This document shows, piece by piece, positions 3,977-13,656 of a stretch of DNA of 64,000 nt. The notes under the pieces are model-generated. The model worked only from the letters and a program-made list of their open reading frames with translations, was not told the origin of the DNA and searched no databases. The stretch covers positions 930,001 to 994,000 of the forward strand of contig CP021423.1 in the NCBI GenBank assembly GCA_002162075.1. Reading direction: 5' to 3'. Both the position numbers and the translations under genes were made by a program. The stretch is from Armatimonadetes bacterium Uphvl-Ar1. GTDB taxonomy: Bacteria; Armatimonadota; Fimbriimonadia; Fimbriimonadales; Fimbriimonadaceae. Numbering within the stretch: position 1 is the stretch's first letter; each line of letters begins with the position of its first letter.

Positions 3977-5431
3977 CTAGCCGCCACGGAGAAGTTGGAG
4001 GATGTTTTGGGGGGCTTGAGATGCCTGGGCCAAGACTGACATTCCACTTTGGCGCAGGATGTTGATCTTAGTGAATTCGGTCATTTCCTTTGCCATGTCG
4101 GCGTCTCGAATTGCGCTTTCAGAAGCGGTGAGATTTTCTTCGGCAATACCGAGAGACCGGACGTTGCTATCGAGGAAGTTTTGTTGGAATGATCCAAGCG
4201 ATCCTCGAATAACGCCCAGTTGTTGGACAGCTGAGTCAACGATTTCGATGGCCCGGGTTGCGCCGGTTTCCGTTGTCAGGTCAACTGTATCAATTGATTC
4301 TCCAGGATAGACTCCCAAGCCGAGATCTTTGGCGAAGACGCTGGGGAGTGAGAAACTGGCAAATTGATTTGCGTTCGCTCCGATTTGGAATCGAACCGCA
4401 CCAACGCTGAGGGCTCCCACCGGAGCGTTGGCGAGAGCTGTTCCGTTTCCGACGGAGGTCATAACAAGTCGGTTTCCGGAGGGACTTGTCAGGGTAAGGC
4501 CGTTGATTCCGGGGCCTTGACCGCCAGTGAATGTTTCGACGGTGGTTGACGGGCTTGGCTCGGTGGGAATCTCAACTGTGAAGACTCCGTCTACTCCAGT
4601 CGTCCCATTGCTACCGACACCACCGTTGAGGATGTTATTGGTTTCGACGTATTGGATGGGGAATCGGCTGCCGAATTCGTTTGAAGTAAGGGTGAAGGTT
4701 CCACCGTTGGCAAAACTTGCGGTTACCCCAGTGAGATTGGTCTTACTGTTGATTTTGGCAAGGATTGAAGCGGCGGTTTCTCCGGGCTCGCTGGTGAAAC
4801 TCACACCGTTGATAGCGAAGACACCGGGGTTGATGGGTGAGGCACCGTTAGCGACGGTTGTGGAGAGTGTGGCAACGGATTGGGTTGCTGCGGTCACTCG
4901 CGAAATGGTGAGATTTCCGGATCGAACGGTTTCTCCATTGACTGTACCGCCGATGTACAGGCTTTCCACGTTTGACACGTTCGTGATGTTGGTAACGGTT
5001 CCGCTTGCGCCGTTCAGAAGCTTTTTGTTGCCCCATGTGGATTGTTCGGCAATTCGGTTGAGGGAGGAGACAATGTTGCGGAGTTGGTTTTGATTGGCTT
5101 GGAGTTGGTTGGCGTCGACAACGGCGGTGTTTGCACTGCTGACGGCGAGGGAGCGAATGGACTGAAGAAGTCGGCTGACTTCTTCCAGTGCGCCTTCAGC
5201 CGTTTTTGACATGTTGACGGCATCTTGAGAGTTCCGGATGGCTTGTTGGATCCCGCTGATTTGCGAGCGGAGTCCTTCGGATACAACCATGCCGGCGGGG
5301 TCATCGCCCGCGCTGTTGATGCGCAGTCCGGTACTGAGCCGGGTGATGGACATTTGCATGTTGTTCTCGTTGATCGCAATTTGTCGCATTGCGGTCATTG
5401 CCGGGATATTGGTGTTAATCCTTAAACTCAC
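3977..5431 (-). CDS. Flagellin
   Basis: Major subunit of the flagellar filament, exported by the flagellar type III apparatus. The amino end (LRINTNIPAMTAMRQ, then the STGLRINSAGDDPAG motif) and the carboxy end (AESAIRDADMAKEM-like region, then LAQASQAPQNILQLL) are the conserved D0/D1 coiled-coil segments. About 230 residues in the middle form a variable, Gly/Thr/Asn-rich D2/D3-like domain. The start is GTG at 5431 with AGGAG about 9 bases upstream. At 484 residues it is mid-size. It is the only flagellar gene in the window, typical of flagellins placed away from the structural operons. A sigma-28-like promoter lies upstream. Confidence 0.96.
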   Translation of the reverse strand: MSLRINTNIPAMTAMRQIAINENNMQMSITRLSTGLRINSAGDDPAGMVVSEGLRSQISGIQQAIRNSQDAVNMSKTAEGALEEVSRLLQSIRSLAVSSANTAVVDANQLQANQNQLRNIVSSLNRIAEQSTWGNKKLLNGASGTVTNITNVSNVESLYIGGTVNGETVRSGNLTISRVTAATQSVATLSTTVANGASPINPGVFAINGVSFTSEPGETAASILAKINSKTNLTGVTASFANGGTFTLTSNEFGSRFPIQYVETNNILNGGVGSNGTTGVDGVFTVEIPTEPSPSTTVETFTGGQGPGINGLTLTSPSGNRLVMTSVGNGTALANAPVGALSVGAVRFQIGANANQFASFSLPSVFAKDLGLGVYPGESIDTVDLTTETGATRAIEIVDSAVQQLGVIRGSLGSFQQNFLDSNVRSLGIAEENLTASESAIRDADMAKEMTEFTKINILRQSGMSVLAQASQAPQNILQLLRGG

Positions 5432-6575: not shown

Positions 6576-7031
6576 ATGACGGATCGGGAGTTTTTGGAAC
6601 AGTTGGTGGGGTACGAAGTGTGGGCGAATGAACAGTGGCTTGGCACATTGGGTCGCTTTAAGGATCGCGCCCGCGCAGAAGGGGTGATGCGTCACATTGT
6701 GGGGTGCTACAACGGATGGCTTGGGCTTGTTGCGGAGTGGGAAGGGAAGCCTCACGAAGAACTTGACCTTGAGGCGGACATGAAGGATCTTTTGAGGCGT
6801 TGGCGGGCGGTGGTACAGACACGGGAGTTGGACGAGGTTGTGGAATTCACGGGCGGAAAAGGGAACAAGCGTAGGCTTGCGGTTCGGGAATTGGTTCACC
6901 ATGTTTTGAACCATGGTTCCTATCACCGTGGTCATCTGCGAGGTCTTGCCGAAGCAGAGGGGCTCGCAGACTTCCCAGAGACGGATTCGCTCTACTACTT
7001 TATCCCGCGGCGATCTGAGAACCTGGATTGA
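6576..7031 (+). CDS. DinB/YfiT-like four-helix protein
   Basis: A 151-residue member of the DinB superfamily, small four-helix-bundle proteins that often hold a divalent metal through three His residues. Some members are thiol-dependent S-transferases, but most are uncharacterised. Visible hallmarks are YEVWANEQWL in helix 1, MRHIVGCYNGWL in helix 2 (first His), and the third-helix motif HHVLNHGSYHRGHLRG that supplies the other two His. The start follows the upstream oxidoreductase stop by 39 bp on the same strand. The 3' end overlaps the convergent CpaE-like gene by 32 bp. Function is unassigned. Confidence 0.85.
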   Translation: MTDREFLEQLVGYEVWANEQWLGTLGRFKDRARAEGVMRHIVGCYNGWLGLVAEWEGKPHEELDLEADMKDLLRRWRAVVQTRELDEVVEFTGGKGNKRRLAVRELVHHVLNHGSYHRGHLRGLAEAEGLADFPETDSLYYFIPRRSENLD

Positions 7032-8145
7032 TCGCCTGGGTGCCGGTATGGGCGGTCAGCAGGTTCGGGAGGATTTGGGATTGGAGGGATTTCAGGTTCT
7101 GATTCCATTTATCCCGGGGTTTAAATCGAGCTAGTGGAGTTCGGCACAACCATGCTTCCGCCATGAATTTGGAAGGCGGTAACGCTCCGGCGAATTTGAG
7201 TTGGCTGGAATCGGCGGCGACTTGGAGCTTGCGAAACGCGGATTTTGCGACTTCGGCTTTTGGTTGCTGGTTGAACAGGATGTTTATCGGAAGATTGGGA
7301 TTGGCCTCCAGTCCGGTTCGGATGATAACTAGGCTGTTGTGAAGACTTGTGGAGTCTGTGCCGGTCAGCAAAAGGAACTGATGGGCGAACTTGAGATAGC
7401 TCAGCTCGGCGTTATCGATGGTTGAGGGGAGATCAATGATGATATGATCGAATTGAGGAGCGAGTTGGGTTGGGGCGGCTCCGAGGTTAATTAGATCGCC
7501 ATATGTGAGGTGGGCGAGATCGGCAGCTCCGGGCTCTCCAGCGAGCAACCGGACACCTGACGTCGTGAGGGTCAGGCTGTCGTACGCGAGTGACTTGCCT
7601 CGGTGGAGGTCTTGGATTGTCGCAGTAGGTTTTGCGCCGAGCGCAATGTGGGCGGTGGGGCGACTGAAATTGGCGTCTATGAGGAGGACGCTTAGGTTTT
7701 GCTCGGCAAGTTGTACGGCGAGATTTGCCGCGACAGTTGTTGCACCGAGTCCTCCGGCGGCTCCCATGACGGCGGTGATCCGGCACGGCTGCCTTGCCCA
7801 ATCGATGGGGTTGTTTGGTTGTTCATTCAAAAGCTTGGGAGCTTTTGAAGAGAGTGATTCGAGGAAATCGGAGGCTTCGGGAACGGGGGCGGAACCGAAG
7901 TGGGTTTCAAAGGCAGCGGAGAAGATATCTTCGGGCACTCGAACCAGGGTGAGGTTGCGACCGAGTTGGAATTGAAGACGGTTGAGGAAATCAAGGTCGA
8001 ATGGACCTGGTCCAGCGCAGACGAGGGTTTGTTGGTCGGCTTTCAGGGGAAGGAGCCGATATTGCCGCGCGGTGGCGATTGGGAGGAGACGCAGGGCGTC
8101 AGGTTGTGCGATGAGTCTCGCGGTTTGAGCGTTGGTTTGGGCCAT
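7000..8145 (-). CDS. CpaE/TadZ-type MinD-like ATPase with an amino-terminal T2SSE_N (MshEN)-like domain
   Basis: A 381-residue two-domain protein. Residues ~10-90 (ALRLLPIATARQYRLLPL ... LDFLNRLQFQLGR ... FSAAFETHFG) resemble the T2SSE_N/MshEN domain found at the front of GspE/PilB-type ATPases, some of which bind cyclic-di-GMP. Residues ~120-360 form a MinD/ParA-like domain with a degenerate Walker A (GAAGGLGATT: both expected Lys are Ala) and a switch region IIIDLPS. Loss of the Walker A Lys is known in CpaE/TadZ pilus-localisation proteins. CpaE usually carries a response-regulator-like receiver here, so this pairing is unusual. It follows the cyclic-nucleotide-binding gene by 76 bp on the same strand, so the two may form an operon. 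I infer a role in polar placement of type IV or Tad pili. Confidence 0.75.
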   Translation of the reverse strand: MAQTNAQTARLIAQPDALRLLPIATARQYRLLPLKADQQTLVCAGPGPFDLDFLNRLQFQLGRNLTLVRVPEDIFSAAFETHFGSAPVPEASDFLESLSSKAPKLLNEQPNNPIDWARQPCRITAVMGAAGGLGATTVAANLAVQLAEQNLSVLLIDANFSRPTAHIALGAKPTATIQDLHRGKSLAYDSLTLTTSGVRLLAGEPGAADLAHLTYGDLINLGAAPTQLAPQFDHIIIDLPSTIDNAELSYLKFAHQFLLLTGTDSTSLHNSLVIIRTGLEANPNLPINILFNQQPKAEVAKSAFRKLQVAADSSQLKFAGALPPSKFMAEAWLCRTPLARFKPRDKWNQNLKSLQSQILPNLLTAHTGTQAINPGSQIAAG

Positions 8146-8221: not shown

Positions 8222-8677
8222 CTAGTCGATTTTGACGACGCTGTCGAGGGCGACGTTTGCGGCGCGGAGACGGGCGGTGAGGATTCGAGAGATGTTGAGG
8301 AGGATGACTTTTGCGATTTCGGGCTCGTTATTCATGAGAGCCCAGAGGTCGTTGTGGGGGATGGATGCGACTTTGACGTTGCCGGCGGCGGTGACGGTGG
8401 CAGAGCGTGGTTTGTCGTCGATGAGGGACATTTCGCCGATGACGGAGCCGGGGCCAGCTTGGGCAATTTCTTCTCCGGAAAAGCCTTTGATTTTAGCAGT
8501 GCCTTCCAGAACGATCATGAGGTCGGCGTCTTTGGCAAATTGCCGCACTAGAGTGTCGCCGCCATTGAATTCCTGATTGCTGGCGATTTGGGCGATCATT
8601 GAGATCTGAGCGACGTTGAGTCCCTGCATGAGGTAGTTGTTTTGCAGGGCGGTGTTGATATCCATGGCCATCGACAT
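8222..8677 (-). CDS. Cyclic-nucleotide-binding (Crp-type) domain protein without a DNA-binding domain
   Basis: A ~151-residue single-domain protein of the CAP/cNMP-binding fold. The beta-roll reads GGDTLVRQFAKDADLMIVLEG, followed by the phosphate-binding cassette region PGSVIGEMSLIDDKPRSATVTA. GEMSL and PRSATV match the cassette's G-E and R-[SA] residues that hold the cyclic phosphate. The chain ends after the carboxy helix (KVILLNISRILTARLRAAN), with no helix-turn-helix, so it should signal through protein contacts rather than DNA. Several start codons are possible (8713, 8677, 8671, 8665); 8677 is a compromise. It lies directly upstream of the CpaE-like gene on the same strand, so a shared role in pilus or motility control is plausible. 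Confidence 0.85.
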   Translation of the reverse strand: MSMAMDINTALQNNYLMQGLNVAQISMIAQIASNQEFNGGDTLVRQFAKDADLMIVLEGTAKIKGFSGEEIAQAGPGSVIGEMSLIDDKPRSATVTAAGNVKVASIPHNDLWALMNNEPEIAKVILLNISRILTARLRAANVALDSVVKID

Positions 8678-9170: not shown

Positions 9171-10826
<1,656 letters not shown>

Positions 10827-12285: not shown

Positions 12286-13656
12286 CTATTTTTCGATTGT
12301 GAAGGAATCGAAAAGCTCGCCGTTGGCGAGGTGGGCGCGGTAGGTGATTTTGGTGGGGGTGACGTTGATGATCTGGTAGAGCTGTTTGTACTCTCCGGTT
12401 TTGGTCATGCGGGAGAGGGCGTCTTCGCCGACGTTATACATTTTGGGGCCGGAAACGGAGACGACGAAGTAGGTTTGTCCGACTTGGGCGGTGGCGCCGG
12501 TGGAGAGGTTGGTGATGTTGGGGCCCCGGAAGAGGGGTTCTGAGACGTTGAAATTTGGAGTTGGAATTTGCTGTCCTTTTTGTCCTTCCCCTGCGGATGA
12601 GGTGGACGAAGATTTATTTGCATCAAACAACCCCTCCCTTGCCCTCCCCAAACTTGGGGAGGGAACTGACGAATGCGAATGAGGGAGGTTCATGCGGCCG
12701 TAGGAGTGGTCGTGGCCTTGGAGAACGAGGTCGACTTTGTGTTTGAGGATGATGGGGAGCCAGAGTTCGCGGAGGGCTTTGTTGTCGCGGCCTTTGGCGG
12801 TGCTGTACATCGGGTAGTGGAACGTGAGGATTGTCCAGTTGGCCTTGGTTTCGCTGAGGGTTTTGTCGAGCCAGGCGGCTTGCTCGGCGGTTTTTTCGAG
12901 CGAATTCAGGCTGATGATGCGGGCACCTTGGAAATCAATGTAGTAGTTGGAATCTTCGAGGCCGGGGACGCCGTTGCGGGGATATTCGAATTGGGGGGTC
13001 CAGAGGCGGGTGATTTTTCCGGATTTGTATTCGTGGTTGCCGGGGGTGGCAACGGAGGGGATGGTGCTGTGGAGCCAGCCGCCGGCATAGAACCACTCGC
13101 CCCATTCTTTGTCGGCTTCGGGGATATTGATAAGGTCGCCCGCGTGGAGCATGAAATCGGCGTATGGGGCGTCTTTTTGGGCTTGTCGGATGACGCGGCT
13201 CCACATGGATTTGACGTTGTTTTGGGCGTCGCCGAAATAGACAAAGGTGAATGGGTCGTCCATTGCGGAAGCGGTGGTGAAGTCGAACCATTCGGACCAG
13301 GTTTCGCCATCGCCGACGCGGTAGCTGTATTTGGTTTTGGGTTTTAGTCCTTTGAGGGAGGCGGTGTGATAGTAGGCGGTTGGGCCTTCGGCGAGTTCGA
13401 GGGGTTGAGATGTGGCGTTTTGGGTGGTGGCGGTTGTGGTGAATCGGGGGTCGCCGGATGAGGGGGCAAATTGGATGAGGGCTTAGGCGACGGGGGCATC
13501 AGTTCGCCAGGTGAATGCGGCTTGGGTGGCGGGGTTGCCATTCCAGGTGTAGATCACTCTTTGGGGTTCGGTGGTTGCTTGGGTTTGTTTGGTGGCGACG
13601 AATGCGGCACTGGCGAGGGAGAGGGCGGCGACGGTGATGGGGAAGAGTGGTTTCAC
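12286..13656 (-). pseudogene. Purple-acid-phosphatase-like metallophosphoesterase with an internal stop codon and a repeat inserted in its coding sequence
   Basis: A secreted binuclear-metal phosphoesterase. From GTG 13656 the frame encodes a signal peptide (FPITVAALSLASAAFVA), then a fibronectin-III-like purple-acid-phosphatase domain, then the catalytic domain from about codon 130. Its metal motifs are FGDAQ, LHAGDLI, TPGNHEY, LTFHYPMYS and QGHDHSYGR. Codon 58 is TAA (13485-13483) with the same frame on both sides, so as given only the part after an internal start such as ATG 13263 (325 residues) could be made. A CAA-to-TAA change would explain it, either as mutation or base-call error. A C-rich palindromic repeat (12630-12665) lies in frame just after the GHDH motif and adds a Ser/Pro-rich loop. 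Confidence 0.75.
12630..12665. repeat. Dispersed palindromic repeat (type B) inside the metallophosphoesterase gene
   Basis: The element contains CCCTCCCCAAACTTGGGGAGGG (two short halves: CCCTCCCCAAA and TTTGGGGAGGG-like), preceded by ACCCCTCCCTTG. The same core occurs at 60249-60268 and, with a changed centre, at 31045-31070. It is translated in frame within the phosphoesterase. The perfect inverted symmetry and multi-copy nature suggest a REP-like or MITE-like element. Confidence 0.65.

Follow-up and report, generated by a model that had tools for sequence, protein, structure and literature searches.

What does a MinD-type protein do when neither lysine of its Walker A motif is left? The question is raised by a gene of the bacterium Armatimonadetes bacterium Uphvl-Ar1 (family Fimbriimonadaceae), found in the window analysed here, a stretch of 64,000 nucleotides (contig CP021423.1, positions 930,001 to 994,000). 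A preliminary description of this DNA saw in the gene an MshEN domain fused to a CpaE/TadZ-type ATPase and proposed a pilus positioning protein gated by a nucleotide second messenger. We favour a different reading, at a probability of about 0.55: a maintained pseudo-ATPase, descended from a MinD/FlhG-like ancestor, would now act as a nucleotide-independent adaptor.

Domain make-up of the fused protein

The gene and its parts are:
7000..8145, minus strand: fused MshEN_C / pseudo-MinD gene, 381 aa (ATG start)
7888..8106, minus strand: MshEN C-terminal subdomain, residues 14-86, without a preceding RLGxx c-di-GMP motif
7084..7782, minus strand: MinD/FlhG-like domain, residues about 122-354
7735..7764, minus strand: degenerate Walker A GAAGGLGATT, residues 128-137, both lysines replaced by Ala
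7003..7071, minus strand: C-terminal tail; the membrane-targeting amphipathic helix of canonical relatives is missing

The fusion itself is borne out by profile searches. Pfam MshEN matches the 381-aa protein at E=1.5e-11 (44.5 bits, cut-off 23.1; profile positions 14-87 of 90), a PF05157 search of the whole genome recovers the same place at 3.7e-12, and AAA_31, CbiA and ParA each exceed their cut-offs within residues 122-354, indicating homology to MinD/ParA at the level of the fold; among NCBIfam models, archaeal MinD, BcsQ and related families score best and none reaches its curated cut-off. The CpaE/TadZ label does not fit best: the closest solved relatives are FleN (7e-20, residues 118-354) and archaeal MinD (9e-14), as opposed to only 4e-4 for 3fkq. 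As in TadZ/CpaE, the MinD-like domain follows a small N-terminal alpha/beta domain, but by profile this domain (residues 14-86) is MshEN_C rather than receiver-like, and it does occupy, as had been noticed, the position of the receiver-like domain of CpaE. Residues 1-95 show neither a receiver fold nor disorder: profiles point to PilB and MshE, the short MshEN part matches PilB among solved structures, and a model of modest confidence (pLDDT 62.9) has the helix-strand order of MshEN_C. Foldseek places PilF and MshE among the first six matches of this model, with weak E values of 0.07-0.16, and VIA-align ranks unrelated rows no lower; AlphaFold2 on the full protein, from a two-sequence alignment, reached a pLDDT of 37.7.

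In MshE, two 24-residue motifs of the N-terminal subdomain bind c-di-GMP, and this subdomain by itself binds the nucleotide as well as the whole does (PMC5013675; PMC11731258); the motif RLGxx... is carried by this nucleotide-binding subdomain, MshEN_N (PMC5013675). The window protein shares the C-terminal subdomain with MshE, PilB and PilF but lacks the N-terminal one with its two RLGxx motifs. A profile built from 14 N-terminal regions of fused proteins matches PilB 90-165 at 9e-11 and, weakly, MshE (5htl) 74-145 at 0.047 and PilF 71-121, in each case the C-terminal subdomain; the PF05157, PilB and MshE matches identify MshEN_C in the window protein in the same way. Both c-di-GMP motifs are absent from 17/17 fused proteins by the relaxed published pattern and by a looser one, and motifs five residues apart were found in none of the 17 by strict or loose patterns. 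Both patterns do detect the motif in other MshEN proteins of the same genomes, including split partners encoded beside MinD genes, and one other MshEN protein of the window's genome carries it (relaxed published pattern). The organism probably makes c-di-GMP, given the 11 GGDEF matches of its genome; since both motifs are missing here and in the 17 fused relatives, however, gating of the window protein by this nucleotide is unlikely.

Both Walker A lysines are alanine, as first described: the motif is G128-A-A130-G-G-L-G-A135-T-T in place of the SGKGGVGKT of relatives, the signature lysine and the P-loop lysine both being gone. The residues are identical in a second assembly whose protein is 95% identical (G006, the public MAG BC.035, contig PNMZ01000002.1). 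The switch-I aspartate has become Asn159, the DxAG glycine is lost, and so is the C-terminal amphipathic helix, the tail AHTGTQAINPGSQIAAG having a hydrophobic moment of 0.28, where canonical relatives reach 0.35-0.93. Asp157 (Walker A') and Asp238 have been kept. Doubts about ATP turnover were thus well placed, and its loss is very likely. Judged from its sequence, the window protein is a MinD fold by descent that lacks the catalytic residues and carries MshEN_C without the receptor half; it is best filed as an MshEN_C-fused MinD-type pseudo-ATPase.

Stepwise losses within one genus

The full two-domain architecture occurs in 17 proteins from 16 genomes and seven genera: 8/8 genomes of the window's genus have it, as do eight further genomes of the family (G008, G023, G085, G086, G032, G033, G024 and G029); in 291 genomes of the phylum, no full-length fused match lay outside the family at the threshold used. 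A scan of genome contigs with the single protein gave one close homologue, the remainder being distant ParA-type matches. In G032 the fused gene, canonical there, stands in two tandem copies (L040, 8741-11110).

Within this set the Walker defect is one end of a gradient, with a canonical ATPase and helix outside the genus and losses inside it. The fused relatives outside the genus, together with G002, have SGKGGVGK[TS] or GGKGGVGK[TS] as Walker A, a switch that is mostly IDCDFGLSN-like, D-T-[AG]-A-G as Walker B and, for most, an amphipathic helix such as LNLFQRIVEKL at the C-terminus. G001 has lost the signature lysine (SGSGGSGKT), has DANF and shows no clear helix; G003 and G005 (GAKGGVGTT) have lost the P-loop lysine and kept the signature lysine; G004, G007, G006 and the window protein have lost both. 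The six proteins without the P-loop lysine all have Asn, Gln or His in place of the switch-I aspartate, and all six lack the DxAG glycine and the C-terminal helix (highest hydrophobic moment of the last 22 residues at most 0.31, against 0.35-0.93 in canonical proteins). All other MinD/ParA-type proteins examined in these genomes retain SGKGGVGK[TS] or KGGVGKT. The six form one clade in the MinD tree (support 100/100), reached by a long branch of 0.81 changes per site, and an FlhA tree unites the same species (100/99); the sister of the clade is G001 in the MinD tree (93/90) as opposed to G002 in the FlhA tree (87/91).

These losses coexist with strong constraint. For the window gene (G000) and G006, dN/dS comes to 0.064 over the whole gene; the MinD part has 0.025, the MshEN part 0.095 and the looser linker 0.239. 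The pair G003 and G005 gives 0.052. Such low values argue that the window gene encodes a maintained pseudo-ATPase.

Gene neighbourhood and split pairs

Three neighbours of the fused gene bear on its possible partners:
8222..8671, minus strand: single-domain cNMP-binding protein, 149 aa, phosphate-binding motif GEMSLIDDKPRSATV, directly upstream
3977..5431, minus strand: flagellin (the genome has four)
9183..10826, plus strand: GroEL, divergent

Only 76 bases separate the fused gene from the cNMP gene, and the two likely share an operon. The linkage is conserved in eight genomes (the window's, G006, G007, G004, G001, G008, G003 and G005), covering most of the genus and one other genus; the cNMP proteins are 49-98% identical to the window copy, and the phosphate-binding motif GE.SL.DDKPRSATV is invariant in 8/8. 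The fused genes of G003 and G005, and no others, are separated from the cNMP gene by a pair of related PEP-CTERM-type genes, one of which gives a PEP-CTERM match (L034, 6772-9244; L035, 10841-13240). A same-strand flagellin lies downstream of the fused gene in all five genomes that have lost the P-loop lysine and whose contig is long enough (that of G007 ends too early). The other neighbours tested are DinB and an oxidoreductase, with GroEL lying beyond; GroEL is found near the fused gene in the genus and within about 6 kb in G023 and G032, and its presence in these two more distant genera supports the orthology of the fused genes. No pilus or Tad gene was found among the neighbours tested, and the MshEN assembly ATPases of the genome are more than 100 kb away. 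Elsewhere in the window, a metallophosphoesterase-like ORF (12286-13263, minus strand) contains at 12580-12660 an in-frame insert, SPSLGRAREG...SSAGEG, which matches about 20 other places of the genome in stretches of 24-45 bases and looks like a short dispersed repeat inside coding sequence.

The same two modules also occur as separate proteins. Two further MinD-type proteins of the window's genome, both canonical, are each encoded immediately after an MshEN gene (2183325/2183753 and 2224914/2224049). PilB, PilC and a pilin-like gene are found about 6 kb from the first pair. The second pair (L050, 9472-18626, near 2224000 of the window's own genome) closes a MoxR-DUF58-BatA-VWA cluster, an arrangement also seen at L044, L045 and L046, and its MshEN domain forms the C-terminus of a longer protein. 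Across the 37 genomes with loci in hand, an MshEN gene immediately precedes a canonical MinD gene, often overlapping it, in about 30. The split pairs resemble the fused gene in having both modules in identical order in adjacent or overlapping genes, and differ from it in comprising two proteins, a canonical MinD and an MshEN in which one c-di-GMP motif, or both, is often present. In 11 genomes (G048, G019, G012, G028, G013, G042, G101, G062, G061, G098 and G038) the two motifs of the split MshEN show the spacing known from MshE, exactly 29 residues, and in 8 of the 11 the final Gln is kept in both. MshEN genes with two perfectly spaced motifs, directly before a canonical MinD-type ATPase, were noted at L015, L018, L019, L023, L025, L048, L077 and L089, among others. 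These two-motif pairs are candidates for a c-di-GMP-controlled spatial switch, and the idea of c-di-GMP control put forward for the window protein fits, by sequence, the split pairs and not the fused protein.

The adaptor reading and its alternatives

We propose that the ancestor was a MinD/FlhG-like spatial-regulator ATPase with an N-terminal MshEN_C subdomain and a C-terminal membrane-targeting helix. Within the window's genus, both Walker A lysines (signature and P-loop), the aspartate of switch I and the membrane helix have disappeared step by step, while purifying selection has held the fold and the MshEN_C module. The window protein would then no longer bind or turn over ATP, nor cycle on and off the membrane, and would be a fixed adaptor that brings two partners together, one held by MshEN_C and the other by the MinD fold. 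Gene order is what points to this scaffold role and to the partners; most speculatively, the upstream cNMP-binding protein might be the regulator and the target might be flagellar.

A flagellar target invites a second reading, which we regard as doubtful, in which the protein, like FlhG, regulates how many flagella are made or how strongly flagellin is expressed, and cNMP control has replaced ATP control in a bacterium without FlhF. FleN (PDB 5j1j) is indeed the best solved match of the MinD-type domain, the cNMP gene lies upstream, a same-strand flagellin follows the fused gene in the clade without the P-loop lysine (at 87 bases in G004), and FlhF reaches the curated TIGR03499 cut-off in 0/85 family genomes while two control genomes reach it. 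The canonical fused relatives resemble FlhG/FleN further in keeping both lysines and in ending with an amphipathic helix, but the window protein has none of these; the DQAxxLR activator helix is replaced by the N-terminal MshEN_C, a search for this motif in the window protein gave no match, and the FlhF partner is missing from the family. Moreover, the gene lies outside the flagellar cluster and the fused genes of other genera are not beside flagellin. Co-occurrence was rejected as evidence: flagellin is present in 73 of the 85 genomes, typically in four copies, and flagella so nearly universal in the family cannot tie the fused protein to them (G063 is a non-flagellated member). A MinD-like match near flhA (L099) was also considered as an FlhG and rejected, being ParA-type.

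It is unlikely that the window protein is still an ATP-dependent MinD-type switch, whether as a heterodimer with a canonical paralogue supplying the lysines or through a non-canonical site in the style of TadZ. Two canonical MinD paralogues are available in the same genome, Asp157 and Asp238 are retained, and G003 and G005 keep the signature lysine. Yet the two lysines, the switch aspartate and the membrane helix have been lost together, and in every P-loop ATPase known the P-loop lysine works in cis. For a non-canonical site there is the precedent of TadZ, which binds ATP despite its atypical Walker A (cited in PMC13170226).

The pilus positioner of the preliminary description, in which MshEN senses c-di-GMP and the MinD part places the pilus, is very improbable. 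The GGDEF matches, the separate MshEN-MinD pair some 6 kb from the pilus genes and PilB as the best match of MshEN_C speak for it; yet the c-di-GMP-binding subdomain is absent (the motif is found in split partners and in 0/17 fused proteins), the ATPase site is gone, and no pilus gene was found among the neighbours, which are flagellin, an oxidoreductase, DinB, the cNMP-binding protein and, farther off, GroEL. Finally, a pseudogene or a gene under relaxed selection, which the loss of several catalytic motifs and the long branch might suggest, is hardly credible and was rejected on dN/dS values of 0.064 and 0.052 in two species pairs and an open frame intact in all.

The adaptor reading may be part of a wider scheme, which we advance tentatively: in this lineage, adjacent MshEN and MinD genes would make up a c-di-GMP-controlled spatial ATPase switch, the receptor gene lying just ahead of that for the ATPase under its control. 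The window gene would be a fused derivative that gave up the two nucleotide inputs to become a scaffold under its cNMP-binding partner, leaving within one genus a stepwise natural series from active to inactive MinD. No paper combining MshEN with MinD, FlhG or ParA was found in the open-access literature; the adjacent genes bear on c-di-GMP control of a MinD-type ATPase, a link not described in the papers found. MinD-type proteins are usually viewed as working solely by means of an ATP cycle, on which dimerisation and attachment to the membrane depend. The window protein is probably a fixed scaffold and not a switch, and the window's genus supplies natural intermediates for each loss. If this is true, a MinD fold that stays under strong selection after such losses would show that this fold can act simply as a scaffold as well.
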